Source: Candidatus Harrisonbacteria bacterium RIFCSPLOWO2_01_FULL_44_18 (lineage in GTDB: Bacteria; Patescibacteriota; Minisyncoccia; UBA6257; WO2-44-18). From it: 33,430 nucleotides of DNA. The DNA is taken from the NCBI GenBank assembly GCA_001817915.1, contig MHJJ01000005.1, positions 1 through 33,430 of the forward strand, written 5' to 3'. Of this stretch, positions 1-24,484 are shown piece after piece. The translations under genes and the position numbers were made by a program. Below the pieces are notes generated by a model, which did not search any database, had not been told where the DNA came from, and saw only the letters and a program-made list of their open reading frames with translations. The number at the start of each line of letters is the position of its first letter. Position 1 is the first letter of the stretch.

Positions 1-1100
1 ACTTCCACTACTGCTACCACCACTTTATTAGGAGCCCTAGGAGTCGGCACTTCCACTCCTGCGGAAAGATTAGCCACTGCCGGAAGACTCTATGTCGGCG
101 GCACTGGGACTTCCACGATTGAAAATAATCTTTTGGTGAGAAATGCTTTGCAAGTCGGGACAGGGTCGCTTTATTTGGATACCAACAGTTTAACTAATCT
201 CACCGGTAATTTAATTTTGCAAAAAACCGGAGGCAACAAAGTCGGAGTGGGAACCTCTACTCCTTTCGGCTTGCTTTCCGTTGAACACACCGCTGGGAAT
301 GTGGGATTTGTCGTGGGGTCTTCAACGGCAACAAGTTTTATAGTGGATGCGGCTGGCAATGTTGGTGTTGGGACGGCAAATCCCGGCAGTGCTTATGGAG
401 TTGTATCAAAGTTGGGTCTTTCGAATAGTGGGGAGCATACCTTTCTTGATATTAATGCACCGTCAGGTAAAATCGCTGCCGTATCATTTTCAAATGCGGG
501 TTCAGATCAGTGGTATATTAGTGGTCGAGGAACTTACGATACTCCTAATAATCGCTTAGCGATTGTAGACGCCAGCAGTGAGCGTATGACTATTTTGTCT
601 GGTGGCAATGTCGGCATCGGAGTGAGTAATCCTGCTTCGAAACTTCATGTTGCTAGCGGCAACACCACGTCGGCGACTGTAATATCAGCAAGCGATAGTG
701 CTGGGGATACAGGGGCATTCGTTGCTTTATGGTCGGGAGCCTCTGGCATATCAAATGCCCCGGCTATTATTTGGTCAGCCGGGGAAGATTTGCGCATTGG
801 TGGAGGTATAACCGACATTGATGGAGGAACTGGTTTCGTAGAAATGATGAGAATTACAGATGCCGGTCTCGTCGGCATCGGCACGACCACCCCTTATGCC
901 GCCCTGTCAGTAGTCGGCGCCAGTGGCGTGGTTGCCGAGGTTTATACCGCCACTTCAACTACTGCCACCACCACTTTACTAGGAGCCCTAGGAGTAGGTA
1001 CTTCCACTCCTGCTGAAAGATTAGCCACTGCCGGAAGACTCTATGTTGGCGGCGCCGGAACTTCCACGATTGAAAATAATTTGATTGTCAGAGGCGCCCT
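1..1100 (+). repeat. Two copies of a ~130-bp module in the giant gene (about 1-140 and 950-1095)
   Basis: Both copies encode TTLLGALGVGTSTPAERLAT followed by a GRLYVGG...TIENNL stretch and differ at few bases. The first is cut by the window edge, so more copies may lie upstream. Confidence 0.75.
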
Positions 1101-4100
1101 TCAAACAGGAGTCGGTTCTACTTACTTGGACACCAACGGCCTTCAAAGTCTTTCCGGTAACCTTACTGTCAAAGCTAGCGGCGCCAACAATCTCTTGCTC
1201 AACCCTACTGGCGGCTTTGTCGGCATTGGCACTACCTCGCCTACATATACTTTGGCTGTCCACAATACTACGCAAGTACCCGCCATCTCGCTATCCGCCA
1301 CTACATCAGTTTATTGGACTAAGCGAGGCGGCGATGCCGTCAATTCTTCTTGGGACGCGACTTATGGATATGTATCTACTATGACTACCTACAATGGCAA
1401 GCTTTACGCGGGGCTAGGTTATGGTGCCGGCCAGGGCGAGGTCTGGGAGTATAATTCTGCTTCTACCACCGTTTGGACCAAGGTAGGTGGCGACGCCGTC
1501 AATTCCTCGTGGGCCGCCGCGGCTGATGTTTTTTCTATGACCACTTACAATGGCAAGCTTTACGCGGGCCTAGGTTCTAGCGGTGCCGAGGTCTGGGAAT
1601 ACAATGGCTCAACCTGGACCCAGATTGGCGGCGACGCCGTCAATTCTTCCTGGGGCACGACTTATGAATATGTATATTCTATGACTACCTACAATGGCAA
1701 GCTTTACGCGGGTCTAGGTTATAGTACTGGCGAAGCCGAAGTTTGGGAATACAATGGTTCTGCTTGGACCCAAGTCGGCGGCGATGCTGTCAACTCCTCC
1801 TGGGCAGACGCTACTTATGGAACTGTATATTCTATGACTACCTACAATGGCAGACTCTACGCGGGGTTAGGAACTAGCGCCGGCGCCGCCGAAGTCTGGG
1901 AATACAACGGCTCCAGCTGGTCTAAAATTGGCGGCGACGCCGTCAATTCCTCTTGGGCTGACGCGACTTATGAATATGTACATTCTATGACTACCTATAA
2001 TGGCAGACTCTACGCGGGGTTAGCAAGTGGTGCCGGCGAGGCCGAAGTTTGGGAATATGATTCTGCTTCTACCACAGTTTGGACCAAGATAGGCGGCGAC
2101 GCCGTCAATTCTTCCTGGGCTGACGCGACTTATGAAATTGTATATCCTATGACTACCCACAATGGCAAGCTTTACGCGGGGTTAGGTGAAACCGCTGGCG
2201 ACGCCGAAGTCTGGGAATACAACGGTTCTGCCTGGACCAAGGTAGGCGGCGACGCCGTCAATTCTTCCTGGGCTGACGCGACTTATGAACGCGCATATTC
2301 AATGACTACCTATAATGGCAAGCTTTACGCGGGGTTAGGTTGGACTGCCGGCAACGCCGAAGTCTGGGAATACAATACTGATTCCATAGCCATCGCCAAA
2401 AGCGGCACGGGAATGACCCTCGGCAATTCTTTGACGCTAAGCCGAAACAACCGAGTGGGTATCGGCACTGATGACCCCCAATTTGATTTGGATGTTTATG
2501 GCAATTTCCGAGTCGGCGGCTCCACTATTGTAGCCACTTCAAGCCGTGTCGGTTTCGGCACTTCTACTCCCTGGGGATTGTTCTCAATTGAGTCAAGTGT
2601 TCAGACTAATAATCAAACACCAATTTTCGTAGTTTCTGATTTTGGTACTTCTACCCCGCAATTATTGGTTAGCGCCGCTGGCAATGTCGGCATCGGCACT
2701 ACTTCTCCCTATGCCCGACTCTCCGTAGTTGGTTCTACTGGTGTAGTTGCTCAACAATTCACCGCCACCTCTTCAAGCGCCACTTCCACCTTGCCTGTTA
2801 TCGCCGCTTTTGATCCCACCGGCAATGTCGGCAGTGCTCTAGGCCGTTTGATTATCAACGCCGCCACCACCACCGGCGAACTTTGGCTCAATCCATACGG
2901 CGGCAAAGTCCACATCGCTTCTTCTTCTCCTGATCAAGTTAATTTAGTAGCGGGTGGAGCAGGATTCAGCGTTTCTACTACGACGTATTTTGGAGGGAAT
3001 GTCGGAATAGGGACGACATCCCCGGCCTCCGGTCTTCTTTCTGTTGAAAACACAGGCAGTGGTTACAGTCTTTATGTAACTGATTCGGCATTAGATACTA
3101 GCCCATTTGTAATTGATGCCAGCGGCTACGTCGGGATAGGCACAAGTAACCCTCAAGATGTGCTTCACATCGGCAACGGATCTGATGCTCCTGCTTTTGG
3201 GTTCGTGGGGCAGAAAGTTTATATAACATTTAACGGCGAATCTGATTTGTTTATTCGAGATTCTACAAATAATGTAGAGGCTAGAATGACCGCGTACAGC
3301 GGAGGAGTAATACTCGGGTCAGTTACTAATCATAAAGTAGAATTTTATCAGAATAACGCGACTAAAATGGTTTTAGATACTGATGGGGAGTTCGGGATTG
3401 GCGTAGATCCCCCCACCGCGCAATTAGATGTCGTGACGGGTACGACAGGCGCCAGTAATTGGGCGGCCAGATTAACAAACTTGAACGCAACAAATCCCTG
3501 GGGACTTTTAATTAACACAGCTGCCAACTCTAACTCTATTTGGGGATTAGAGATTAGAAATAATACTAGTAGAACAGATTTTGTAGTAACTACTGCCGGC
3601 AACGTCGGTATTGGGACATCAACTCCTGGCACTACTTTAGCTGTCCAAGGATCAGCGGTTATCAATGGGCCTCTTACTACTTACAACACCCTGACTCTTT
3701 CTAGTTTGGTAGCCACAACTTCCGCCACTTCCACTTTCGCGGGACCGATTGCTTCAAACGCGAGTGATGGAAGATTGATAATCCACGGCGCCACCACCAC
3801 CGGCGAATTGTGGCTGAATCCGTATGGAGGAAAAGTTCATGTAGCCAGCTCAACCCCATCAGCCAATCTTCTCGCCAGCGGCGTAGGTTTCAGCGTTTCC
3901 ACAACGACGTATTTTGGCGCTAATGTGGGGATAGGGACGACTTCCCCCGGCGGGCTACTTTCCGTATCTGCAAACGGAACAGCACCTGCTTTTCTTTTAA
4001 ATCAAACTTCAACTGGGGACTTGCTTACGCTTCAAGATGGCGGTTCAACAGTTTTTGTGGTTAAAGATGGCGGCAACGTCGGCATCGGGACGGCAAACCC

Positions 4101-6711
4101 GGGGACCCTCTTGGACATTAAAGATACAACTACGGCGAATACAAGTGGTCAGAATATTTTGACGCTGCAATCGGATTATATTGGAGCTACTGTAGGAAGT
4201 GGGGGGAGGATTGTATTTAAATATCAAGGCGGAACTCAGGAAACGGCCGATATTAGAGCTTATACTTTTGGTACTGGTGCTACGGGACTTGCTTTCGGCA
4301 CGGGATTTAATGCAGTCACGACCAAAATGGTAATTAACAATGCTGGCAGTGTTGGCATTGGGACGACAGACCCTCAAGCGATTTTGGATGTGCAAGGAAC
4401 TGGGGCCGCGGGTTACACGGTTATGCGAATAAATAATGATCAAGTAGGAAACACACTCGGTTGGTATATGACTTTAGCAAGCGGTGCTAGCCCCGGAACA
4501 GCTAGGGGTTACTTCGGTGTAGGCAAACCAACTGGAGGAACTGCGACGATTTTTACTAATGAAACTGCTGATTCGGTTGGTTTACGCTCTGAAGGTTATT
4601 TATATTTAGGGAGTGGAAACGCCGCAGATATGACTATTGATACAAGCGGCAACGTCGGCATCGGCACTACTTCTCCTGGCACTTTGCTTTCAGTTGCCGG
4701 TTCAGCAGTCATCAATGGACCCACTACTTTATACAATTCGGTTACCTTACCTTCATTAGTAGCTACCACCACTGCCACTTCCACTTTTGCCGGACCGATT
4801 GCGTCAAATGCCTCCGATGGCAAACTAATTCTTCACGGAGCCACCACCACCGGCGAATTGTGGCTCAATCCTTATGGCGGCAAAGTCCACATCGCTTCTT
4901 CTTCTCCTGATCAAGTTAATTTAGTAGCGGGTGGAGTAGGATTCAGTGTTTCTACGACGACGTATTTTGGCAGTAATGTCGGAATTAGTACTACTACTCC
5001 ATGGGGCCGGCTCTCTGTCGAAATGGATACGACCAATCCTGCCTTCGTAGTATCTAATCAAGGCAGTTCTACTCCCGCTTTCTATATTGGGGGAGTTAAT
5101 GAAAATGGCCGAATCGGCATTGGGACGTCAAGTCCGAAAGTCACATTTTCAGTGGGAGGCGATTTTCTCGCGTCCTCAACCAGCGGGTTTATCGCGGCTG
5201 GCCAACAAGGAGTAATACAGGTAAATCCTGGTTTTGGGTCGACAGGGGTGATATTAAGAGCAGTTGGCACAACTCCGTATGTAATTGCGCAACTTGGAAC
5301 GACAAATGATACGAACAGCGCCTTTATCGTATACGATTCACTTGATAATGCCCGGTTTACGGTGTATGCGAATGGGAACGGCGTTTTCAGCGGCAATTGC
5401 AGCGATGCCGCCGCCGGCGGCGGATGTACTGCTGACTACGCTGAAGTATATCATCGCGACCCTGCCGATTTTATGGAAAAAGGCGACTTGCTTTCGTTAA
5501 ACCCCGCGACCGGCAAACTTGTTCGCGCTGATAAAAACAATTCCAATATTCTTGGCGTATTTTCTTCATCGCCCGGTTCTTTGATTGGGCAACGGAAGAA
5601 CTCAATATCGCTTGGCGTTGGCACGACCGTGCTTGATGATTTGGACCCCGATGAGATTCCGATTGCGCTTGTGGGGCGTGTTCCGCTTAAAGTCAATCTT
5701 GAAGGCGGTGAAATAAAAATCGGCGATCCGATTACAGTTTCTTCCGAATCGGGAATTGGCATGAAAGCCACTAAGGCGGGAAGGATCATCGGCTACGCGT
5801 TAGAGAATTACAATTTGGGGACATCGGAAGTCCAAAATATTGACGGCAATTCGGGGACTTCCGATGTCCAAAATATTGGCAAGATTTTAGTCTTCATTAA
5901 CCTAAGTTACTGGATGCCCGTTGAACTTGGAGACCAAGAAGACTTAGCGGCAGATTCTTCTGGTTTATTGGCCCAAGTTATTGATATAGTAGCTAACTGG
6001 CTGGAAAATGCTTTTGTGAAAATCAAGGAATTGGTGGTGGAGAAATTGAAAATTGGCAGTCCCGAAAAACCAACCGGCATCACTTTGTATGATAAATCCA
6101 CTGGCGAACCTTATTGTTTGGAAATCATAGGTGGCGCGCCTGTTTCCACGCCGGGCGAATGCGGGACATCGAATGTCGGGACTTCCGATGTCTCCCCGAC
6201 ATCCGATATCTCAAATATTGATGATTCTCCCGCCGAAAGCGGATCCGCCGAAGGCGGACAGATATCGGATGTCGAAAATATTGATACAATTGCCCCCACC
6301 ATCATCATTAACGGCGACAACCCAACCCAAATTGAAGTAGGTTCAAGCTATGTTGATCTCGGCGCGACTGTAACCGATTCCGATGGGGCAGGCAATGTCA
6401 ATGATAATCTAAGTATTTATTACCAAGTGGATGGTGTTTCGACCCCAAATGATGGCCGCGAACCCCCAGATGGTTCGGCAGGCTCACCACAAGGAATTGA
6501 CACCAGCATCCCCGCTACCCACACTATTACTTATACCGCCACCGACCAAGCCGGGAACACCGCTGCCGCCACGAGAGAAGTAATTGTTTTTGACCCGTAC
6601 GCGGGCGATAATTTGGGGACTTCCGATGTCCCAAATATTGACGCGAATTCACAGGACATCGGAAGTCCAAATATTGATTCCGAGCTTCCGCCAGAAGAAC
6701 CGTCTTTGTAA
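1..6711 (+). CDS. Giant repeat surface protein (5' end outside the window)
   Basis: The frame is open from base 1, so the true start lies upstream; 2236 residues are visible. Numbered from base 1, it holds many short repeats of the form GNVGIGTTSP followed by an LSV strand, as in phage-fibre-like and CPR surface proteins. A block of seven near-identical ~50-residue repeats (about 439-792, WxxxGGDAVNSSW...YNGKLYAGL...AEVWEYN) looks like a beta-propeller. A GELWLNPYGGKVH module occurs three times. ADYAE at about 1811 opens a domain resembling the intramolecular chaperone/autocleavage domains of tail appendages. A helical segment (about 1990-2020), a GITLYD/TGEPYC motif and a DUF5011-like Ig domain (about 2097-2198) follow. 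No C-terminal anchor is visible. Near the end, short GTSDVxNID peptides are encoded by palindromic DNA repeats. A role in surface display or attachment is inferred from architecture, not shown. Confidence 0.85.
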   Translation, partial: TSTTATTTLLGALGVGTSTPAERLATAGRLYVGGTGTSTIENNLLVRNALQVGTGSLYLDTNSLTNLTGNLILQKTGGNKVGVGTSTPFGLLSVEHTAGNVGFVVGSSTATSFIVDAAGNVGVGTANPGSAYGVVSKLGLSNSGEHTFLDINAPSGKIAAVSFSNAGSDQWYISGRGTYDTPNNRLAIVDASSERMTILSGGNVGIGVSNPASKLHVASGNTTSATVISASDSAGDTGAFVALWSGASGISNAPAIIWSAGEDLRIGGGITDIDGGTGFVEMMRITDAGLVGIGTTTPYAALSVVGASGVVAEVYTATSTTATTTLLGALGVGTSTPAERLATAGRLYVGGAGTSTIENNLIVRGALQTGVGSTYLDTNGLQSLSGNLTVKASGANNLLLNPTGGFVGIGTTSPTYTLAVHNTTQVPAISLSATTSVYWTKRGGDAVNSSWDATYGYVSTMTTYNGKLYAGLGYGAGQGEVWEYNSASTTVWTKVGGDAVNSSWAAAADVFSMTTYNGKLYAGLGSSGAEVWEYNGSTWTQIGGDAVNSSWGTTYEYVYSMTTYNGKLYAGLGYSTGEAEVWEYNGSAWTQVGGDAVNSSWADATYGTVYSMTTYNGRLYAGLGTSAGAAEVWEYNGSSWSKIGGDAVNSSWADATYEYVHSMTTYNGRLYAGLASGAGEAEVWEYDSASTTVWTKIGGDAVNSSWADATYEIVYPMTTHNGKLYAGLGETAGDAEVWEYNGSAWTKVGGDAVNSSWADATYERAYSMTTYNGKLYAGLGWTAGNAEVWEYNTDSIAIAKSGTGMTLGNSLTLSRNNRVGIGTDDPQFDLDVYGNFRVGGSTIVATSSRVGFGTSTPWGLFSIESSVQTNNQTPIFVVSDFGTSTPQLLVSAAGNVGIGTTSPYARLSVVGSTGVVAQQFTATSSSATSTLPVIAAFDPTGNVGSALGRLIINAATTTGELWLNPYGGKVHIASSSPDQVNLVAGGAGFSVSTTTYFGGNVGIGTTSPASGLLSVENTGSGYSLYVTDSALDTSPFVIDASGYVGIGTSNPQDVLHIGNGSDAPAFGFVGQKVYITFNGESDLFIRDSTNNVEARMTAYSGGVILGSVTNHKVEFYQNNATKMVLDTDGEFGIGVDPPTAQLDVVTGTTGASNWAARLTNLNATNPWGLLINTAANSNSIWGLEIRNNTSRTDFVVTTAGNVGIGTSTPGTTLAVQGSAVINGPLTTYNTLTLSSLVATTSATSTFAGPIASNASDGRLIIHGATTTGELWLNPYGGKVHVASSTPSANLLASGVGFSVSTTTYFGANVGIGTTSPGGLLSVSANGTAPAFLLNQTSTGDLLTLQDGGSTVFVVKDGGNVGIGTANPGTLLDIKDTTTANTSGQNILTLQSDYIGATVGSGGRIVFKYQGGTQETADIRAYTFGTGATGLAFGTGFNAVTTKMVINNAGSVGIGTTDPQAILDVQGTGAAGYTVMRINNDQVGNTLGWYMTLASGASPGTARGYFGVGKPTGGTATIFTNETADSVGLRSEGYLYLGSGNAADMTIDTSGNVGIGTTSPGTLLSVAGSAVINGPTTLYNSVTLPSLVATTTATSTFAGPIASNASDGKLILHGATTTGELWLNPYGGKVHIASSSPDQVNLVAGGVGFSVSTTTYFGSNVGISTTTPWGRLSVEMDTTNPAFVVSNQGSSTPAFYIGGVNENGRIGIGTSSPKVTFSVGGDFLASSTSGFIAAGQQGVIQVNPGFGSTGVILRAVGTTPYVIAQLGTTNDTNSAFIVYDSLDNARFTVYANGNGVFSGNCSDAAAGGGCTADYAEVYHRDPADFMEKGDLLSLNPATGKLVRADKNNSNILGVFSSSPGSLIGQRKNSISLGVGTTVLDDLDPDEIPIALVGRVPLKVNLEGGEIKIGDPITVSSESGIGMKATKAGRIIGYALENYNLGTSEVQNIDGNSGTSDVQNIGKILVFINLSYWMPVELGDQEDLAADSSGLLAQVIDIVANWLENAFVKIKELVVEKLKIGSPEKPTGITLYDKSTGEPYCLEIIGGAPVSTPGECGTSNVGTSDVSPTSDISNIDDSPAESGSAEGGQISDVENIDTIAPTIIINGDNPTQIEVGSSYVDLGATVTDSDGAGNVNDNLSIYYQVDGVSTPNDGREPPDGSAGSPQGIDTSIPATHTITYTATDQAGNTAAATREVIVFDPYAGDNLGTSDVPNIDANSQDIGSPNIDSELPPEEPSL
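1315..2376 (+). repeat. Seven tandem ~150-bp propeller-like repeats inside the giant gene
   Basis: Seven units of about 50 codons follow one another without gaps. Each begins with Trp, then GGDAVNSSW, an MTTYNGKLYAGL strand and AEVWEYN. DNA identity between units is high, including silent positions, which points to recent amplification or gene conversion. Seven is the commonest blade number of closed beta-propellers, so the block could form a complete one. Confidence 0.85.
2863..5000 (+). repeat. GELWLNPYGGKVH module, three dispersed copies
   Basis: Copies start near 2863, 3790 and 4840. The second and third share a longer upstream block (from about 3600 and 4650) that includes SAVINGP and FAGPIASNASDG. 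Long in-gene DNA repeats like these are substrates for recombination and can also collapse in assembly. Confidence 0.75.
5819..5878. repeat. In-gene palindromic repeat, AAATATTG family
   Basis: A 15-base arm GGACATCGGAAGTCC (5819-5833) and its perfect inverse GGACTTCCGATGTCC (5855-5869) are each followed by AAAATATTG. In frame they encode peptides of the GTSDVQNI type. Related palindromes lie at 6197-6274, 6617-6668 and, between genes, at 8996-9037 and 15149-15190. Confidence 0.75.
6197..6274. repeat. In-gene nested palindromes of two families
   Basis: Outer arms CGACATCCGATATCT (6197-6211) and AGATATCGGATGTCG (6260-6274) are exact inverses. Each is followed by AAATATTG or AAAATATTG. A second palindrome type, GGATCCGCC-gaa-GGCGGA, sits in the loop near 6241-6258. 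Confidence 0.7.
6617..6668. repeat. In-gene palindromic repeat near the 3' end of the giant gene
   Basis: GGACTTCCGATGTCC (6617-6631) and GGACATCGGAAGTCC (6654-6668) are exact inverses, each followed by CAAATATTG or AAATATTG. The arms are the same as at 5819-5869 but in the opposite order. Confidence 0.75.
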
Positions 6712-17151: not shown

Positions 17152-17757
17152 TTAAAGAGCAAATTGTTGTCCGGTGAAAATCCAAAAGATGAATTGCGCC
17201 ACTGGAGGAAGTAGGAAAAACGCGACCAATAACGCGAGAAAAATGCCGGCAAAACCCAATTTCATAAAATATTGCCACTGGCGGGGAAACAGATCGGCAA
17301 ACACTTTTGAGCCGTCTAGGGGCGGAAAGGGGATAAGATTAAATAAGCCCAAAAAAATATTTATATAAACAATCAGTGCCAGAAGTTCTAAGAAAATCGA
17401 GGGATCGACTGCCGCAACTAAAACCCTTAAGATCAATCCTAAAATCAAAGCCAGCATCAGATTTGTGGCCGGACCGGCCACGCCGACTTTTAACGACCCG
17501 TATTTTTGATCCCGTAAATTGTAGGGGTTATAAGGAACCGGTTTTGCCCAACCGATGAAAATTCCGGAAGTAAAAAGCAAAAATAAAGGAACAATAATCG
17601 TGCCCCAAAGGTCTATGTGGGGAATCGGGTTTAGAGTTAATCTTCCGGCGTCTTTGGCGGTTGTATCGCCCAATCGGTAAGCGACCCAGCCGTGAGCGTA
17701 TTCATGAAAAACCGCCGACAATATTATTACAAGATATAGAAAAAATCTTACGTCCAT
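17152..17757 (-). CDS. Site-2 protease family (M50) membrane peptidase
   Basis: 201 residues with several transmembrane segments. Zinc ligands lie in HEYAH (residues 18-22), within the first hydrophobic segment, and the third ligand in NLIPFPPLDG (140-149), as in the short M50 proteins. Members cut substrates within the membrane; many release transcription factors or process anti-sigma factors. There is no PDZ domain, so it belongs to the minimal class. An ECF sigma gene lies about 4 kb away; a link is speculative. TATAAT at 17764-17769 is six bases from the ATG, so the mRNA is probably leaderless. Confidence 0.9.
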   Translation of the reverse strand: MDVRFFLYLVIILSAVFHEYAHGWVAYRLGDTTAKDAGRLTLNPIPHIDLWGTIIVPLFLLFTSGIFIGWAKPVPYNPYNLRDQKYGSLKVGVAGPATNLMLALILGLILRVLVAAVDPSIFLELLALIVYINIFLGLFNLIPFPPLDGSKVFADLFPRQWQYFMKLGFAGIFLALLVAFFLLPPVAQFIFWIFTGQQFAL

Positions 17758-17784: not shown

Positions 17785-17815
17785 TTTGTATATAAAAGCC
17801 CCGATCATACGGGGC
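17785..17815 (-). terminator. Terminator of the CYTH-kinase gene
   Basis: CGGGGC/GCCCCG arms (17810-17815 and 17798-17803) enclose the stop codon of the upstream gene, and TTTTATATA follows on the minus strand. Confidence 0.6.
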
Positions 17816-19622
17816 CCGCGAGATTTCGCGTAACAATTTCTAAATACGATTTTTTCGTTGCTTGCGATTTTGGAATTCCAAGTTTCTTGGCAAGCCGCCT
17901 AATTTTAGCGCCATCATTTTTATTAGTTGAACAAACTTCAATGAATTTTTCCCCATTCTGGTCTTGCAGTAATTGATCAAGCGCGACCACCAAGCCGTCA
18001 ATAAAAAATAAAGTTCGTTTTTTTGAGACTACGGCAAGCTGGCGATAATCTTTGTGGAGCAATCTTTCAATTTCCGGACTAATCGGGATGTCCAGCCGCG
18101 CCCTAAGCCGCAAATCATTTTCAATCAGCGGACCTTTATAGGTCAGCGTTAAGTCCGGCGCGCCGTCAATTTCTTCCACGCGTACTCGGATAATTTCATC
18201 GATCTGCCGCAACCAAATCGCGCTTCCAATCTTGGGAATAAAGTACCCGTCATATTGTTTAACCGATCCAAGTTTTTGAGCGCCGACGGCAGTGAGATCG
18301 TCTTCGTTAACATTGCCGGCTGGAAATTTAATTTGGAGTTCAAAACGGCCGGCTCGCTGCGATTCTTTGGCGGGGTCATATTCATTATGAATGACGATAT
18401 CGGCCTTTTCTTTTGTCGGCTGCACGTAAGCGTCGTGCATCGGTTCTACCGTGGCGAGGAAATATCCGAGAATCTCTCGGAGACTTTGGTTAGTGCGCCC
18501 GGCAACCGCGTCGCGCATTAGCCGCCGAAGCATTCTGCCATGCATGCCGATGTCCACAAATATCTTTATGTCGGCATGATCGGCCACTTCCGGTTTTAAC
18601 GCGAAAAGCCCCTCAACAATAACCGCTTTTACCGGCGGGAATTCTTCCGCGCCTTCCCGTCGGCCAGTCGTAAATGAGTATTTCGGTTTATTAAGGACAG
18701 GCAATCCGTTGGCGAGTAAATCAAGGTGATTTTCAAGCAGGCCAAGATCTAGCGCTTCCGGTTGATCCCAATTTAACTCCGGATGCTGTTTCATGAAATC
18801 AACGCCGCGATAATAGTCATCCATGCTCAAAATTTTCGCGTCTGCCAGCAGTTCTGATAATTTCTGCGCCACCGCTGAAGTTTTGCCCGAAGCCGATCCG
18901 CCGGCAACGGCAATAATGATTGGACGCGCATCGCGATTTTCCATCAGATTTTTCGCTAAAGAAACGGCCCTATTTATTCCGGTTTCCAGATTAAACTTCT
19001 CGGTAATCCCCAGCCCCCTTTCATATTTAGAAAGGGTTGAAATTTTAAGGCCGAATTTCTTTTGCAATATTTCGGCGATTTGCTTTAAAGATTCTTCGGT
19101 CGCGCCTTTATTTTCCAATTCAATCTCAAACTCCATTGGCTTGTCAGTATCTAAAAAAGAAATTTGATCAAACGCGGCTTCTATTTTTTCCGTTTGCTTT
19201 TCAATTTGCCGACTAAGAATCATCTTAGTTCTTTGAGTTTTAACTAACAAAATCGGCGACTTTCCTTCTTTTCTTAACATTTCTAGCCACCTGGCGAATA
19301 CGGTAATTCTGTCTATCCAGCTGGAGGCGCGCTCCACTTTTTCCGTTTCGATTCTATTGAACGCTCCTCCATCTTTTGGCAAAGGAAATTTATTAGTCAA
19401 GATTAACTCTTGGTCTTTACAGCGGAGCCGAACGCTTTCGCCGCGCTGTAATAAAGCCTTGTCCGAAGTATCGAAATAAAGATCAAAATGGGTTTCTACT
19501 TTCGCTGACCCCACTTTAAATCCTTCTATTTCCGAATTTGAGAAGAAAAAATCTAGCACGGCGCGGAAAGTCCTTTCATCAGCCAGAAATTTAAATTCTT
19601 GCTCGACATTTGCCGCTTTCAT
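17805..19622 (-). CDS. CYTH - uridine kinase - CYTH fusion protein
   Basis: 605 residues in three domains. Residues 1-205 form a CYTH (triphosphate tunnel) domain with the ExExK signature EQEFK (7-11), then Arg/Lys-rich strands and an EFEIELE strand (164-170). Residues 230-420 are a uridine kinase/phosphoribulokinase-type P-loop kinase: GGSASGKT (241-248), SMDDYY (266-271), IVEGLFAL (335-342). Residues 425-605 look like a second, more divergent CYTH-like domain (FELQIKFP, RVRVEEID, LTLTYKGP, FIDGL). CYTH domains hydrolyse or sense triphosphates such as PPPi; plant TTM1/2 also join a uridine-kinase-like domain to CYTH. Substrate here unknown. GGAGGCAGA precedes the ATG, a rare clear Shine-Dalgarno here. 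Confidence 0.85.
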   Translation of the reverse strand: MKAANVEQEFKFLADERTFRAVLDFFFSNSEIEGFKVGSAKVETHFDLYFDTSDKALLQRGESVRLRCKDQELILTNKFPLPKDGGAFNRIETEKVERASSWIDRITVFARWLEMLRKEGKSPILLVKTQRTKMILSRQIEKQTEKIEAAFDQISFLDTDKPMEFEIELENKGATEESLKQIAEILQKKFGLKISTLSKYERGLGITEKFNLETGINRAVSLAKNLMENRDARPIIIAVAGGSASGKTSAVAQKLSELLADAKILSMDDYYRGVDFMKQHPELNWDQPEALDLGLLENHLDLLANGLPVLNKPKYSFTTGRREGAEEFPPVKAVIVEGLFALKPEVADHADIKIFVDIGMHGRMLRRLMRDAVAGRTNQSLREILGYFLATVEPMHDAYVQPTKEKADIVIHNEYDPAKESQRAGRFELQIKFPAGNVNEDDLTAVGAQKLGSVKQYDGYFIPKIGSAIWLRQIDEIIRVRVEEIDGAPDLTLTYKGPLIENDLRLRARLDIPISPEIERLLHKDYRQLAVVSKKRTLFFIDGLVVALDQLLQDQNGEKFIEVCSTNKNDGAKIRRLAKKLGIPKSQATKKSYLEIVTRNLAGPV

Positions 19623-20042: not shown

Positions 20043-20978
20043 TTAAATTTCCAGGCCGCGGAGGGCTTTAACGCGCTCTTCCACGGGCGGATGAGTCATA
20101 AATAAATGGTGAAGCCAAGAAGTTTTTTGCCTGCCTTTTCCGCCCAGGGCGGATCCGCCTTCGGCGGAAAACGGATTATTTATCCAAAGATGGGCAGTGG
20201 CGTTATGAGCCATACGAAGCGGCACGGGATCAGAGGAAATTTTTATTAAAGCGTTAGCTAGCCCCTCGGGGTATCTGGTTAATAGAGCTCCGGAGGCGTC
20301 GGCTAAAAATTCGCGTTTTCGAGAAATCGCGAGCCGCATCAGGGTCGCGACAATCGGCGCCAAAATTATTAAAGCAATGCCGATCAGCAAAAAAACCGGA
20401 TTAACCGCGCTTCGCTGACGCTGACCGCCGAATCCGCCTCGCCATAGCATTGATCTTAAAAAGAAATCCGCGGCTAAAGAAACAAACCCAACCAAAATCA
20501 CTGCCATGGTGGAAATCAGCATATCCCGATTGCCAATGTGCGAAAGTTCGTGGGCAATTACTCCTTCCAGTTCTGAACGATCTAATTTTTCCAACAAGCC
20601 GGTGGTAACCGCCACTACCGCGTGTTCGGGATTTCGTCCAGTCGCGAAAGCGTTGGGCGCTTGTTCATCAATTAAATAGACTTTCGGCATCGGCAAACCG
20701 GCGGTAATCGCCAGATTTTCAACAATGCGATAGATCTCCGGGGCATTTTCCATTTCAACGGGCCTTGCATGGGATATCCTCAAAACAATTTTATCCGAAT
20801 ACCAATAGCTGACAAAAGCCGTAGCCGAGCTAAAAACAACCGCTATTACTAAAATATCGGGATTGTTAAATACGTAAGAAAATAGCCATCCCAATCCGAT
20901 GACTACAATTAAGAAGCCCGTGAATAAAACCCAAGTCTTTCGGATATTGGAATCGCGATGAGCGTATAAAGAAGCCAT
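20043..20978 (-). CDS. htpX: HtpX-family membrane zinc metalloprotease
   Basis: 311 residues, M48B family. Two N-terminal transmembrane segments (about 15-35 and 41-58), HELSH (143-147) with zinc-binding histidines, a further hydrophobic pair (about 155-172 and 193-215), and the downstream RKREFLADA with the third zinc ligand Glu. In E. coli HtpX degrades damaged membrane proteins under envelope stress. Residues near 278-290 (FSAEGGSALGGKGRQ) are encoded by a GC-rich palindromic repeat, probably an in-frame insertion in a tolerated loop. It lies 19 bases after lemA, a common pairing, and ends at a terminator near 19954. Confidence 0.93.
   Translation of the reverse strand: MASLYAHRDSNIRKTWVLFTGFLIVVIGLGWLFSYVFNNPDILVIAVVFSSATAFVSYWYSDKIVLRISHARPVEMENAPEIYRIVENLAITAGLPMPKVYLIDEQAPNAFATGRNPEHAVVAVTTGLLEKLDRSELEGVIAHELSHIGNRDMLISTMAVILVGFVSLAADFFLRSMLWRGGFGGQRQRSAVNPVFLLIGIALIILAPIVATLMRLAISRKREFLADASGALLTRYPEGLANALIKISSDPVPLRMAHNATAHLWINNPFSAEGGSALGGKGRQKTSWLHHLFMTHPPVEERVKALRGLEI
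20136..20171. repeat. GC-rich palindrome inside htpX
   Basis: TTTTCCGCC (20136-20144) and GGCGGAAAA (20163-20171) flank GGGCGGATCCGCC; alternative stems TCCGCCC-a-GGGCGGA and TCCGCC-ttc-GGCGGA are also possible. It adds a Gly/Ala-rich stretch to HtpX. Same family as at 6241-6258. Confidence 0.65.
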
Positions 20979-20997
20979 CTACTTCGGAACTTATAAC

Positions 20998-21552
20998 TTA
21001 TAACTTAACCCGTACTGGTTCTTTTTCTTCGGCGGTAGCGACTTCAAAGAATTTTTGTTCATGAAAACGGAATACTCGCGCGACTGCGTTCGTGGGAAAA
21101 CTATGAATTTTCGTGTTAAGATCCCGAACCATCGTGTTGTGAAAGCGGCGCGCGGCCTGAATTTTATTTTCCGTGTCGGCGAGCTCTCTTTGAAGGTCCA
21201 GAAAATTGGCATTTGCTTTCAAGTCTGGATAATTTTCCGCCACCGCGAATAAGGTTTTAAGAGTGCCGGAAAGCATATTTTCGGCATTTTCTCTTTTGGG
21301 ATCCAAAAGATCGCCGCCGGCGCCCATCACTTGAGTCCTGGCTTTTGTGACATTTTCCAGCACGGTTTTTTCATGCTGCATATATCCCTTGACGGTTTCG
21401 ATGACATTGGGGATCAGGTCATACCGGCGTTTTAATTGGACATCAATGTCGGCCAAGGCCTCTTTTGCTCGAAAACGCAGACGTATTAAACTATTGTAGG
21501 TCCAAATCACCCACAAAACCGCGGCGCCCGCGATTACATAAATTATTGTCAT
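20998..21552 (-). CDS. lemA: LemA family protein
   Basis: 184 residues: one N-terminal transmembrane segment (about 2-20), then a long helical-bundle domain with the family signature YNSLIRLRFRAKEALADIDVQ and RRYDLIPNVIETVKGY, and LQRELADTENKIQAARRFHNTMVRDLN. LemA proteins expose their helical domain outside the inner membrane and often pair with HtpX; the exact role is unclear. It is the first gene of lemA-htpX. TTGACT-16-TATCAT lies upstream with the -10 six bases from the ATG, again a leaderless arrangement, and it shares an inverted -35 region with the divergent sigma gene. Confidence 0.93.
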   Translation of the reverse strand: MTIIYVIAGAAVLWVIWTYNSLIRLRFRAKEALADIDVQLKRRYDLIPNVIETVKGYMQHEKTVLENVTKARTQVMGAGGDLLDPKRENAENMLSGTLKTLFAVAENYPDLKANANFLDLQRELADTENKIQAARRFHNTMVRDLNTKIHSFPTNAVARVFRFHEQKFFEVATAEEKEPVRVKL

Positions 21553-21603
21553 TTTTTAATGATAACTTGACTGCGCGTAAAGTCAATGTATTATTGTGGA
21601 TAA
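21553..21603. promoter_or_regulatory. Mirror-image divergent promoters of lemA and the ECF sigma gene
   Basis: TTGACT (21567-21572) and AGTCAA (21581-21586) are exact inverses, and each is the -35 of one direction. Minus strand: TTGACT-16-TATCAT (21559-21564), six bases to the lemA ATG. Plus strand: TTGACT-16-TATTAT (21589-21594), nine bases to the sigma ATG; these nine are TGTGGATAA. The shared arms could be bound by one regulator or by the sigma factor itself. Confidence 0.65.
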
Positions 21604-22167
21604 ATGGAGTCAGATTGGGCCGAAGAAAAAGACGAGGTTATTCTGGCGGCGTCTTTGAAAGACCCGGCAGTTTTTGGTTTGCTAGTAGATCGTTACCAGG
21701 GGGCGTTTTTGCGCAAAGCCCTGGGCGTTGTCCGCCAAAAAGAAGAAGCGGAAGACATAGTGCAGGAAACTTTTGTGAAAATATACCGAGCCGGCGATTC
21801 TTTCAAAAAAATGCCCGACATTGAATTTAAAAGCTGGGCCTATAAAATTCTTATGAATACCTCTTTCACGCATTATCAAAATTTGAAGAAAAAATTGGGC
21901 GCCAGCGAGTATTTGGACCCGGATTTGCATAACGAGATAGCTGGAGAGGACGGCCGCGCGGCGGATTTTATCAATGACGCCAGAACCGAAGTGGGCGCGG
22001 TAATCAATAAAATGCCGGAACATTTAGCCAAAGTTTTGAAACTTTATTATCTTGACGACAAATCTTACAAGGAAATCTGCGAGATTGAAAATATTTCCAT
22101 TGCCACGCTGAAAATGAGACTTTTTCGCGCCAAACGATTGTTTCATAAATTGAGCGCCGGAATATGA
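21604..22167 (+). CDS. ECF-type sigma-70 family RNA polymerase sigma factor
   Basis: 187 residues. Region 2 runs from about 25 to 95 (LLVDRYQGAFLRKALGVV, EDIVQETFVKIYR at 50-62, FKSWAYKILMNTSFTHYQNLKKK). Region 4 is at about 130-182 (MPEHLAKVLKLYYLDDKSYKEICEIENISIATLKMRLFRAKRLF), a helix-turn-helix that reads the -35. There is no region 3, as in extracytoplasmic-function sigmas. The last codons overlap the next gene (ATGA at 22164-22167), which encodes a membrane protein; this is where anti-sigma genes usually sit. It is divergent from lemA-htpX, pointing to envelope stress control. No Shine-Dalgarno; near-leaderless start. Confidence 0.92.
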   Translation: MESDWAEEKDEVILAASLKDPAVFGLLVDRYQGAFLRKALGVVRQKEEAEDIVQETFVKIYRAGDSFKKMPDIEFKSWAYKILMNTSFTHYQNLKKKLGASEYLDPDLHNEIAGEDGRAADFINDARTEVGAVINKMPEHLAKVLKLYYLDDKSYKEICEIENISIATLKMRLFRAKRLFHKLSAGI

Positions 22168-22505
22168 AGTACAAGATTTTATTCAAGGTATATTTAATCT
22201 GGTTTTTTAGGCGAATTTTACCGCTGATGGTTTTGCAGGTTTTAGTTTTGATACTCGCGCTTAAAATTTTTGCCGGGCAAGTTTTTGTCGCCAAAGTTTT
22301 TGAAAACGCGGCAGTGACCGCTCGCGCCGGTTACTGGGATTTTTTTAAGTATTTGGTCTCGGCATTTTTTCAAACTCGACCGCTGATTCAAGTCGTCATT
22401 TTAATTATGCTGGGATTCGGAGCTTTAATCTTGAGGGATATCGGCAGAGCATTGATTACTTACGCGGGACTTAAAGTTCCAGGAGGCAGGAACTTAGGAG
22501 AATGA
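22164..22505 (+). CDS. Two-span membrane protein coupled to the sigma factor
   Basis: 113 residues with hydrophobic segments at about 7-40 and 75-95, joined by a ~35-residue polar loop (FENAAVTARAGYWDFFKYL). The N-terminus is short and basic (MKYKILFKVYLIWFFRR). Translation is coupled to the sigma gene by an ATGA overlap. By position it could hold the sigma factor at the membrane, but none of the usual anti-sigma features is seen: no cytoplasmic zinc-binding HxxxCxxC and no RskA-like domain. Family not recognised. Confidence 0.65.
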   Translation: MKYKILFKVYLIWFFRRILPLMVLQVLVLILALKIFAGQVFVAKVFENAAVTARAGYWDFFKYLVSAFFQTRPLIQVVILIMLGFGALILRDIGRALITYAGLKVPGGRNLGE

Positions 22506-22671
22506 AGTTTTCGTGGGCTTACGCTTATGGCCCTTTGCGAAGTGTGAAGGTGGATAACGCGCGGCTATTTTTTTTGTTTATGGTCTAATTCGCGCGAATA
22601 GGAGAATTGAAGAATTAATAAAAATTTGTAATCACGAAATCAAACCTCGGGCTTCTAGTTTTATAAGCAGC

Positions 22672-22759
22672 AAAGGTCGTATTGAACACCCCACATTCAG
22701 AACTCATCTCAATAATAATTCCTAACGCGATTATTATTGAGATGGGTTCAGTGACCTTT
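22672..22759. ncRNA. Large structured element before the str operon
   Basis: The 20-base arm 22700-22719 (GAACTCATCTCAATAATAAT) pairs with 22730-22749 over its full length with one T-G wobble. An outer AAAGGTC/GACCTTT pair (22672-22678 and 22753-22759) closes the structure. This lies in the 581-base gap 22506-23086, which holds no ORF. Confidence 0.6.
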
Positions 22760-22765
22760 CGATAT

Positions 22766-22852
22766 TATAATGGGTTATATTAAACGGAAGAGATAAAACC
22801 TTCCTCATAATAATGACCCGACAGAGCGCCTCATTCGACCGGGCGCTTTGTT
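22766..22852 (+). ncRNA. Promoter-to-terminator segment, candidate small RNA
   Basis: TATAAT (22766-22771) or TATATT (22776-22781) is followed about 50 bases later by AGCGCC (22825-22830) / GGCGCT (22842-22847) and TTGTTGTT. It would give an RNA of about 70 bases with no ORF. The terminator is weak. Confidence 0.35.
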
Positions 22853-22936
22853 GTTAATCCAAGCCTATTTCTCCCTTTATGTCAGCTATAGCGCGCATAA
22901 CGGAAGTATTGAATGGAAGTATTGGTTGACACGGAT

Positions 22937-24079: not shown

Positions 24080-24484
24080 ATGGCAAAAAAGATTGATCTC
24101 ATTCATCCCGCGTTAAGCTACAAAATCGTTGGCTGTGCCTTTAGGGCTCACAACGCCCTAGGCGGGGGTCAATTAGAAAAATATTATCAACGGGCCCTGG
24201 CCGAAAGCTTTAAGGCGTCTGATTTATCGTTTAAAGAACAGGCGTATTTCCCAATAAGTTTTAGAAATAAGACAATTGGTAAAAATTTCATTGATTTTTT
24301 GATAGAAGAAAAAGTTGCGGTTGAAATTAAAGCTGGAACAAGGTATTCTAGGAATCACGTTTTGCAAACACTGAATTATCTTAAAGTAAGTGATTTAGAA
24401 TTAGCAATACTGATAAATTTTGGCAAAGAAGAAGTCAGTTTTAAGCGGTTGGTTAATGTTCAGAAAGATGTGCCGCTAGCTTAA
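24080..24484 (+). CDS. GxxExxY-family protein inside the str operon
   Basis: 134 residues. GGGQLEKYYQRAL (about 28-40) matches the GxxExxY signature, and IDFLIEEKVAVEIKAG carries a PD-(D/E)XK-like core (Asp72, Glu82, Lys84). The family is named for the motif and predicted to be nuclease-like; its function is not established. ATG 24080 is chosen; ATG 24073 is in another frame. It sits between rpsG and fusA, where these two are normally adjacent, and spacers on both sides look like the other str spacers, so it has probably been captured by the operon. Confidence 0.85.
   Translation: MAKKIDLIHPALSYKIVGCAFRAHNALGGGQLEKYYQRALAESFKASDLSFKEQAYFPISFRNKTIGKNFIDFLIEEKVAVEIKAGTRYSRNHVLQTLNYLKVSDLELAILINFGKEEVSFKRLVNVQKDVPLA

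Follow-up and report, generated by a model that had tools for sequence, protein, structure and literature searches.

The gene for an ECF-type sigma factor that is followed immediately by a gene for a small membrane protein of no recognised family raises the question of whether the two products form a sigma/anti-sigma pair and, if so, what they control. The locus lies in a 33,430-nt stretch of DNA (hereafter, the window) from contig MHJJ01000005.1 of Candidatus Harrisonbacteria bacterium RIFCSPLOWO2_01_FULL_44_18 (GCA_001817915.1). The genome assembly comprises 752 kb in 14 contigs, the window being part of contig C5, and, among named organisms, Ryanbacteria, Sungbacteria and other Parcubacteria are closely related. 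Other genes of the window include a repetitive open frame of 2192 residues (133–6711) that is rich in GIGT(T/S)SP-like repeats and probably encodes a surface protein; a single 605-aa open frame (17805–19622) that combines a CYTH domain with a uridine-kinase/phosphoribulokinase-type domain; and a GxxExxY-type gene, so named from its sequence (24080–24484), which appears to interrupt the str operon, with rpsG on one side and fusA on the other.

The sigma factor and its membrane partner

The sigma factor gene (21604–22167, plus strand) encodes a protein of 187 amino acids that contains regions 2 and 4 (Pfam Sigma70_r2, 3e-13, and Sigma70_r4_2, 5e-13) without region 3, the domain composition of ECF sigma factors, and that also scores above the cut-off of TIGR02937. 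The nearest solved proteins by sequence are AlgU, RpoE, SigW and SigH, and sigma factors are the top Foldseek matches of a model of a read-through fusion of the pair from locus L226. Three sigma factors of this genome exceed the Pfam region-2 cut-off; two of these are ECF-sized, and the third, whose open frame is long, probably represents the housekeeping sigma factor. The partner gene (22164–22505, plus strand) encodes a protein of 113 amino acids with a basic N-terminus and two hydrophobic spans, and its start codon overlaps the stop codon of the sigma gene (ATGA). Both open frames, the overlap and the two spans are located exactly as in a preliminary description of the window.

ECF sigma factors are usually held by a membrane anti-sigma factor encoded alongside. 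The preliminary description had proposed that the membrane protein plays this role as a potentially new type, a proposal that would have been undermined by loss of the membrane gene beside the sigma gene in relatives. No such loss is seen. The close sigma factor is present in 93 of 384 genomes sampled from the class (E <= 9e-46; the next match is at 3e-37), and the partner is found in all 93. Beyond these, the partner is matched well in one genome where the sigma gene is cut at a contig end (G292) and weakly in another (G058). Similarly, in a set of 101 relatives, the 15 genomes that encode the close sigma factor, including that of the window (E <= 5e-53; next match, 2e-22), are exactly the 15 that encode the partner. 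The partner gene lies directly 3' of the sigma gene, on the same strand, in 116 of 116 loci, i.e., 105 distinct loci of the class and 11 more from the order. A phylum-wide genome sample yielded no match to the pair outside this class. The genomes sampled for these comparisons are draft assemblies that are in many contigs and largely incomplete. A search for a natural fusion of the two proteins found none. An apparent open frame of 24,121 amino acids near 224 kb in contig C15 of genome G022 (L268) proved to be spurious, produced by a masked stretch of N.

For the partner of the window, Pfam, NCBIfam, PHROGs and the PDB sequences yield no match, no Pfam family is common to 84 members examined, and the model of the partner alone matches no fold in the PDB (Foldseek). 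Conservation across 105 members (~96 effective) is highest in the N-terminal cytoplasmic segment, K-x-R-I-M-R-R-V-Y-x-I-W-F-x-R; span 1 is followed by a conserved VFVxxVxxN, with the final N in 92% of the members, and span 2 is preceded by (F/Y)xxxAFxxT and followed by R-D-x-x-R. The AlphaFold2 model built from 84 sequences is confident (pLDDT 90) and consists of helices 2–39, 42–53, 57–70 and 73–102, so that the N-terminal segment and span 1 form one 38-residue helix, followed by two short outer helices and span 2. The cytoplasmic parts accordingly amount to ~16 and ~15 residues, with an outer segment of roughly 35 residues. These cytoplasmic parts are shorter than those of any anti-sigma domain known to us.

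Comparison with the established anti-sigma classes, as defined in PMC7406223, places the partner in neither class I nor class III, in line with the earlier statement that it contains no known anti-sigma domain. Class I proteins (RseA, RsiW, ChrR, MucA) are, like the partner, encoded beside ECF sigma factors of the RpoE/SigW/AlgU type, but their N-terminal cytosolic four-helix domain, which often carries Hx3Cx2C and averages about 100 residues (PMC7406223), is missing here: ~16 cytosolic residues precede span 1, Hx3Cx2C is absent, and there is no Pfam match. Features of class III, the RsbN-type helical domain, were not detected, given that no PDB chain is matched by sequence. There is a parallel to class II, represented by CnrY, the partner of CnrH in Cupriavidus, which is likewise a very small membrane protein with a short cytosolic helical part. 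However, CnrY binds its sigma factor via two cytosolic helices, whereas the protein described here has two spans and a single short N-terminal helix that runs into span 1 in the model, and no sequence similarity between the two was found.

Gene order and co-occurrence suggest that the partner is an anti-sigma factor. That it is instead a tether, a positive signalling subunit or an envelope effector under the control of the sigma factor appears unlikely. The very short cytoplasmic segments and the failure of every anti-sigma model to match would fit such a role, as would the lack of covariation: in mean-field DCA of 102 sigma–partner pairs (~81 effective), the true pairing performs no better than shuffled ones. 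A structural model of a read-through fusion (L226) contains a confident sigma factor and membrane hairpin, but the artificial joint is spanned by one long helix and the model offers no interface readout. Against a role other than inhibition, the strict one-to-one co-occurrence and the tight gene order constitute the usual sigma/anti-sigma pattern, and the most conserved part of the protein is precisely its cytoplasmic helix.

Promoters of the sigma gene

The gap between the sigma gene and the divergent lemA-htpX genes (20043–21552) contains two interleaved promoters of the housekeeping type that were detected by pattern match. The one facing the sigma gene (21567–21594, plus strand) consists of TTGACT (21567–21572) and TATTAT (21589–21594); the one facing lemA (21559–21586, minus strand) consists of TTGACT (21586–21581) and TATCAT (21564–21559). 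The spacers are 16 nt long in both. Thus, the -35 boxes that had been described as exact inverses, TTGACT and AGTCAA, are indeed present with this geometry. The suggestion that this mirror-image element is special, or represents the sigma factor's own promoter, is not supported: each promoter differs from TTGACA-16-TATAAT by two mismatches, and the boxes are inverses of each other because both are near-consensus and face opposite ways. Sites of this kind number 13 in the window, against 3.75 expected. The 752-kb genome has five matches to the narrower pattern TTGACT-N15-17-TATYAT, two of them in this gap, and none to a reversed-pattern control. A role of the mirror-image element as an operator was also considered and dropped. 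The start codons of both genes are located ~6–10 nt past the -10 boxes and, therefore, both transcripts look leaderless; furthermore, each -35 box lies within the spacer of the other promoter, so that occupancy of the two promoters by polymerase would be mutually exclusive. In one family of the order to which the window genome belongs (L208, L218, L221, L225, L226 and L229), the sigma gene is directly preceded by tRNA genes, sometimes separated by a gap of only a few tens of bases, and likewise looks leaderless.

The relatives point to a different type of promoter for this sigma factor. Two-block expectation maximisation on 101 regions upstream of the sigma gene yields AACcTTTTt-N10-gcGTTATA, with a log-likelihood of 138 compared to 8–16 in shuffles and a spacing of 10 in 92% of the sites; upstream regions of the sigma gene show no enrichment of TATAAT-type -10 boxes. 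An AAC-type -35 box is typical of RpoE/SigW-like sigma factors. In the family as a whole, such a box with fixed spacing is found at the promoter of the sigma operon itself; the region upstream of the window's sigma gene is without the motif, the lemA/sigma gap scoring 1.7 bits at most. The sigma factor of this family is predicted to read AACcTTTT-N10-GTTATA.

These observations bear on the reading, implied by the preliminary description, in which the sigma factor recognises TTGACT-16-TAT(C/T)AT, shared with lemA-htpX, and HtpX or an M50 protease cuts the partner. In the window, the two promoters and the genes of the two proteases are indeed close to the pair, and two other families (L076 and L175) also have lemA-htpX beside it, upstream and co-directional, a rare but recurrent neighbourhood. 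However, both promoters are of the consensus housekeeping type, and the motif of the sigma factor in the relatives is a different one. The link to lemA-htpX is weak as well: it adjoins the pair in 3 of the 105 loci, in two different orientations, and among 80 genomes with the pair, 67 encode htpX, elsewhere in 64 and next to the pair in three. Adjacency in three different families is slightly more than would be expected by chance, but it is not a conserved feature. The M50 protease gene is found where it had been reported (17152–17757), but its proposed connection to the pair is not supported, as no other locus has an M50 gene adjoining. Linked site-1 and site-2 proteases, the hallmark of RIP-controlled sigma systems, are thus not a feature of these loci. 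We consider this reading highly improbable and have dropped HtpX and the M50 protein as proteases linked to the pair.

A predicted small RNA downstream of the membrane gene

When the motif matrix, trained on sigma upstream regions, was applied without refitting to the regions downstream of the membrane gene, matches above 12 bits were obtained on the sense strand in 18 of the 116 loci, compared to none on the opposite strand and 0.9 in dinucleotide shuffles. In the order that includes the window genome, 13 of 26 downstream regions score above 8 bits (1.6 in the control). The density of matches above 14 bits is 196 per 100 kb upstream of the sigma gene, 34 downstream of the membrane gene and 1.2 elsewhere in the same loci; the first of these values is partly circular because the matrix was trained there, but the second is not. 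In several families, the downstream promoter overlaps the stop codon of the membrane gene, and in five loci (L164, L171, L172, L180 and L206) a match precedes the membrane gene itself. Altogether, a promoter above 12 bits is present on either side of the pair in 52 of the 116 loci, under half. A strict motif search away from the locus in 80 genomes produced ~27 sites against ~20 in the control, which suggests that the regulon may be small.

In the window, the evidence for an ECF promoter is a single 18-bit site: the predicted promoter GACCTTTCG-N10-GGGTTATA (22753–22779, plus strand), which is the best match in the window at 18.0 bits, where five shuffled windows reach at most 14.3. It is followed by a predicted small RNA (22786–22853, plus strand), proposed on the basis of its fold and a position common to the relatives, which ends in a terminator hairpin with a 13-pair stem, GAGCGCC..GGGCGCTTTGTTG (22819–22853, plus strand); the 71-nt stretch 22783–22853 has a fold z-score of -5.0. 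Further upstream, there is a possible second, degenerate ECF-type promoter, GAAATC ... GTTTTA (22638–22663, plus strand; 1.7 bits), located 8 nt before a AAAGGTCG element (22672–22679, plus strand), a spacing that is the same as in the relatives. The putative transcript from this weak promoter would form a single long hairpin of 190 nt (z = -8.3), in which AAAGGUCG and the GACCUUU of the second promoter pair with each other. The genome contains three copies of a 16-bp repeat, AATAATTCCTAACGCG: one at 22712–22731 in the window, inside the long hairpin in the gap that separates the membrane gene from rpsL, and two at C5:47489 and C14:30379 of the same genome (G000), so that the copy of the locus in the window may have been remodelled by a mobile or repetitive element. 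One copy of the repeat matches the TTGACT pattern by accident.

Across the loci, the predicted RNAs downstream of the membrane gene are ~65–190 nt long and terminator-ended, with fold z-scores of -3.4 to -8.5, and match no Rfam family. A de novo motif search on 300-nt downstream regions at first returned coding-like sequence, presumably that of an rluD-type gene next door; in the narrowed regions, the top motif is AAAGGTC, the element represented by AAAGGTCG in the window. AAAGGTC is found in 33 of the 116 loci (3–4 in shuffles; reverse complement in one), and the density of AAAGGTCG is 62 versus 2.3 per 100 kb. In the families outside the order of the window genome, the RNA often begins with A-AAAGGTC(G/A). 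Within that order, many of the RNAs instead form a long hairpin in which CCUCA(C/U) is left unpaired and which precedes the terminator, with z-scores down to -8.5; the CCUCA could pair with the Shine-Dalgarno sequence GAGG.

By sequence, many of these loci contain candidates for the parts expected of a small RNA gene, namely, an ECF-type promoter, a short structured transcript and a terminator. Alternatively, the short RNA might be the 3' untranslated region or terminator of the sigma operon, or else a leader or attenuator of the next gene. We regard this as rather unlikely, considering that a matrix trained elsewhere matches in these regions, on the sense strand only, and that the next gene varies among the families. 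Moreover, in L177 and L205 the promoter, the AGGTCG motif and the terminator are all located on the opposite side, upstream of the sigma gene, which suggests that the RNA unit changes position yet remains part of the locus. The placement of the RNA between the operon and the following gene, as well as its terminator, are nevertheless what a 3' untranslated region or leader would display, and many loci have no above-threshold promoter at this position.

A putative surface-signalling cassette

Given the invariant pairing, the recurrent promoter motif and its positions, and the RNA-like folds, the interpretation that we favour, with moderate confidence, is that the partner and the small RNA represent a minimal membrane-anchored anti-sigma factor of a new sequence family together with an RNA whose transcription is driven by the sigma factor. 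The locus would then serve the Parcubacteria-type class as a compact unit for signalling at the cell surface, in which the co-translated two-span protein holds an RpoE/SigW-like ECF sigma factor inactive at the membrane. The sigma factor would bind the short, basic N-terminal cytoplasmic helix (K-x-R-I-M-R-R-V-Y-x-I-W-F), whereas the ~35-residue outer segment with VFVxxVxxN would sense the envelope, such that envelope stress, through a change at the outer loop, would release the sigma factor. Once freed, it would act on AACcTTTT-N10-GTTATA promoters of its own locus and of the small RNA; these candidate promoters precede the sigma gene in many relatives and sometimes the membrane gene, and often directly follow the latter. 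In the window genome, the sigma gene would be transcribed from the housekeeping promoter that overlaps the one of lemA-htpX, and the recognisable sigma-dependent promoter would be that at 22753–22779, after the membrane gene. The RNA would act by base pairing, with CGACCUUU or GAGG at translation starts as candidate target sites.

In its logic, as opposed to homology, this arrangement resembles the sigmaE-RseA-MicA/RybB system of E. coli and Salmonella, which combines autoregulation through an AAC-type -35 box with sigma-dependent small RNAs (PMC1804206). Both include an ECF sigma factor and an adjacent membrane protein, and sigma-dependent RNAs are predicted here as well. In contrast to RseA, the partner has two spans and no known anti-sigma domain; the RNA is encoded at the sigma locus and is not homologous to MicA or RybB; and there are no linked Rse proteases. 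A more specific formulation, which we put forward only tentatively, is that the partner defines a fourth, minimal class of membrane anti-sigma factors, with two spans and docking by the single N-terminal helix KxRIMRRVYxIWF, combined at one locus with a sigma-driven RNA that carries either a AAAGGUCG 5' element or a CCUCA-loop hairpin.

The bacteria in which the pair occurs are tiny and for the most part uncultured. Patescibacteria possess few regulators in genomes of about 1 Mb or less, and to our knowledge almost nothing is known about surface sensing in these organisms. The pair, encoded by roughly one in four genomes sampled from the class, together with the predicted promoter and the neighbouring RNA, offers a signalling circuit that is open to direct testing and may represent a new architecture of anti-sigma factors. 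Targeted literature searches for sigma-controlled small RNA families of this group returned none, and the RNA described here may be the first of which we are aware. If this interpretation is correct, the locus would be a self-contained sigma/anti-sigma/small-RNA cassette specific to one class of Patescibacteria.
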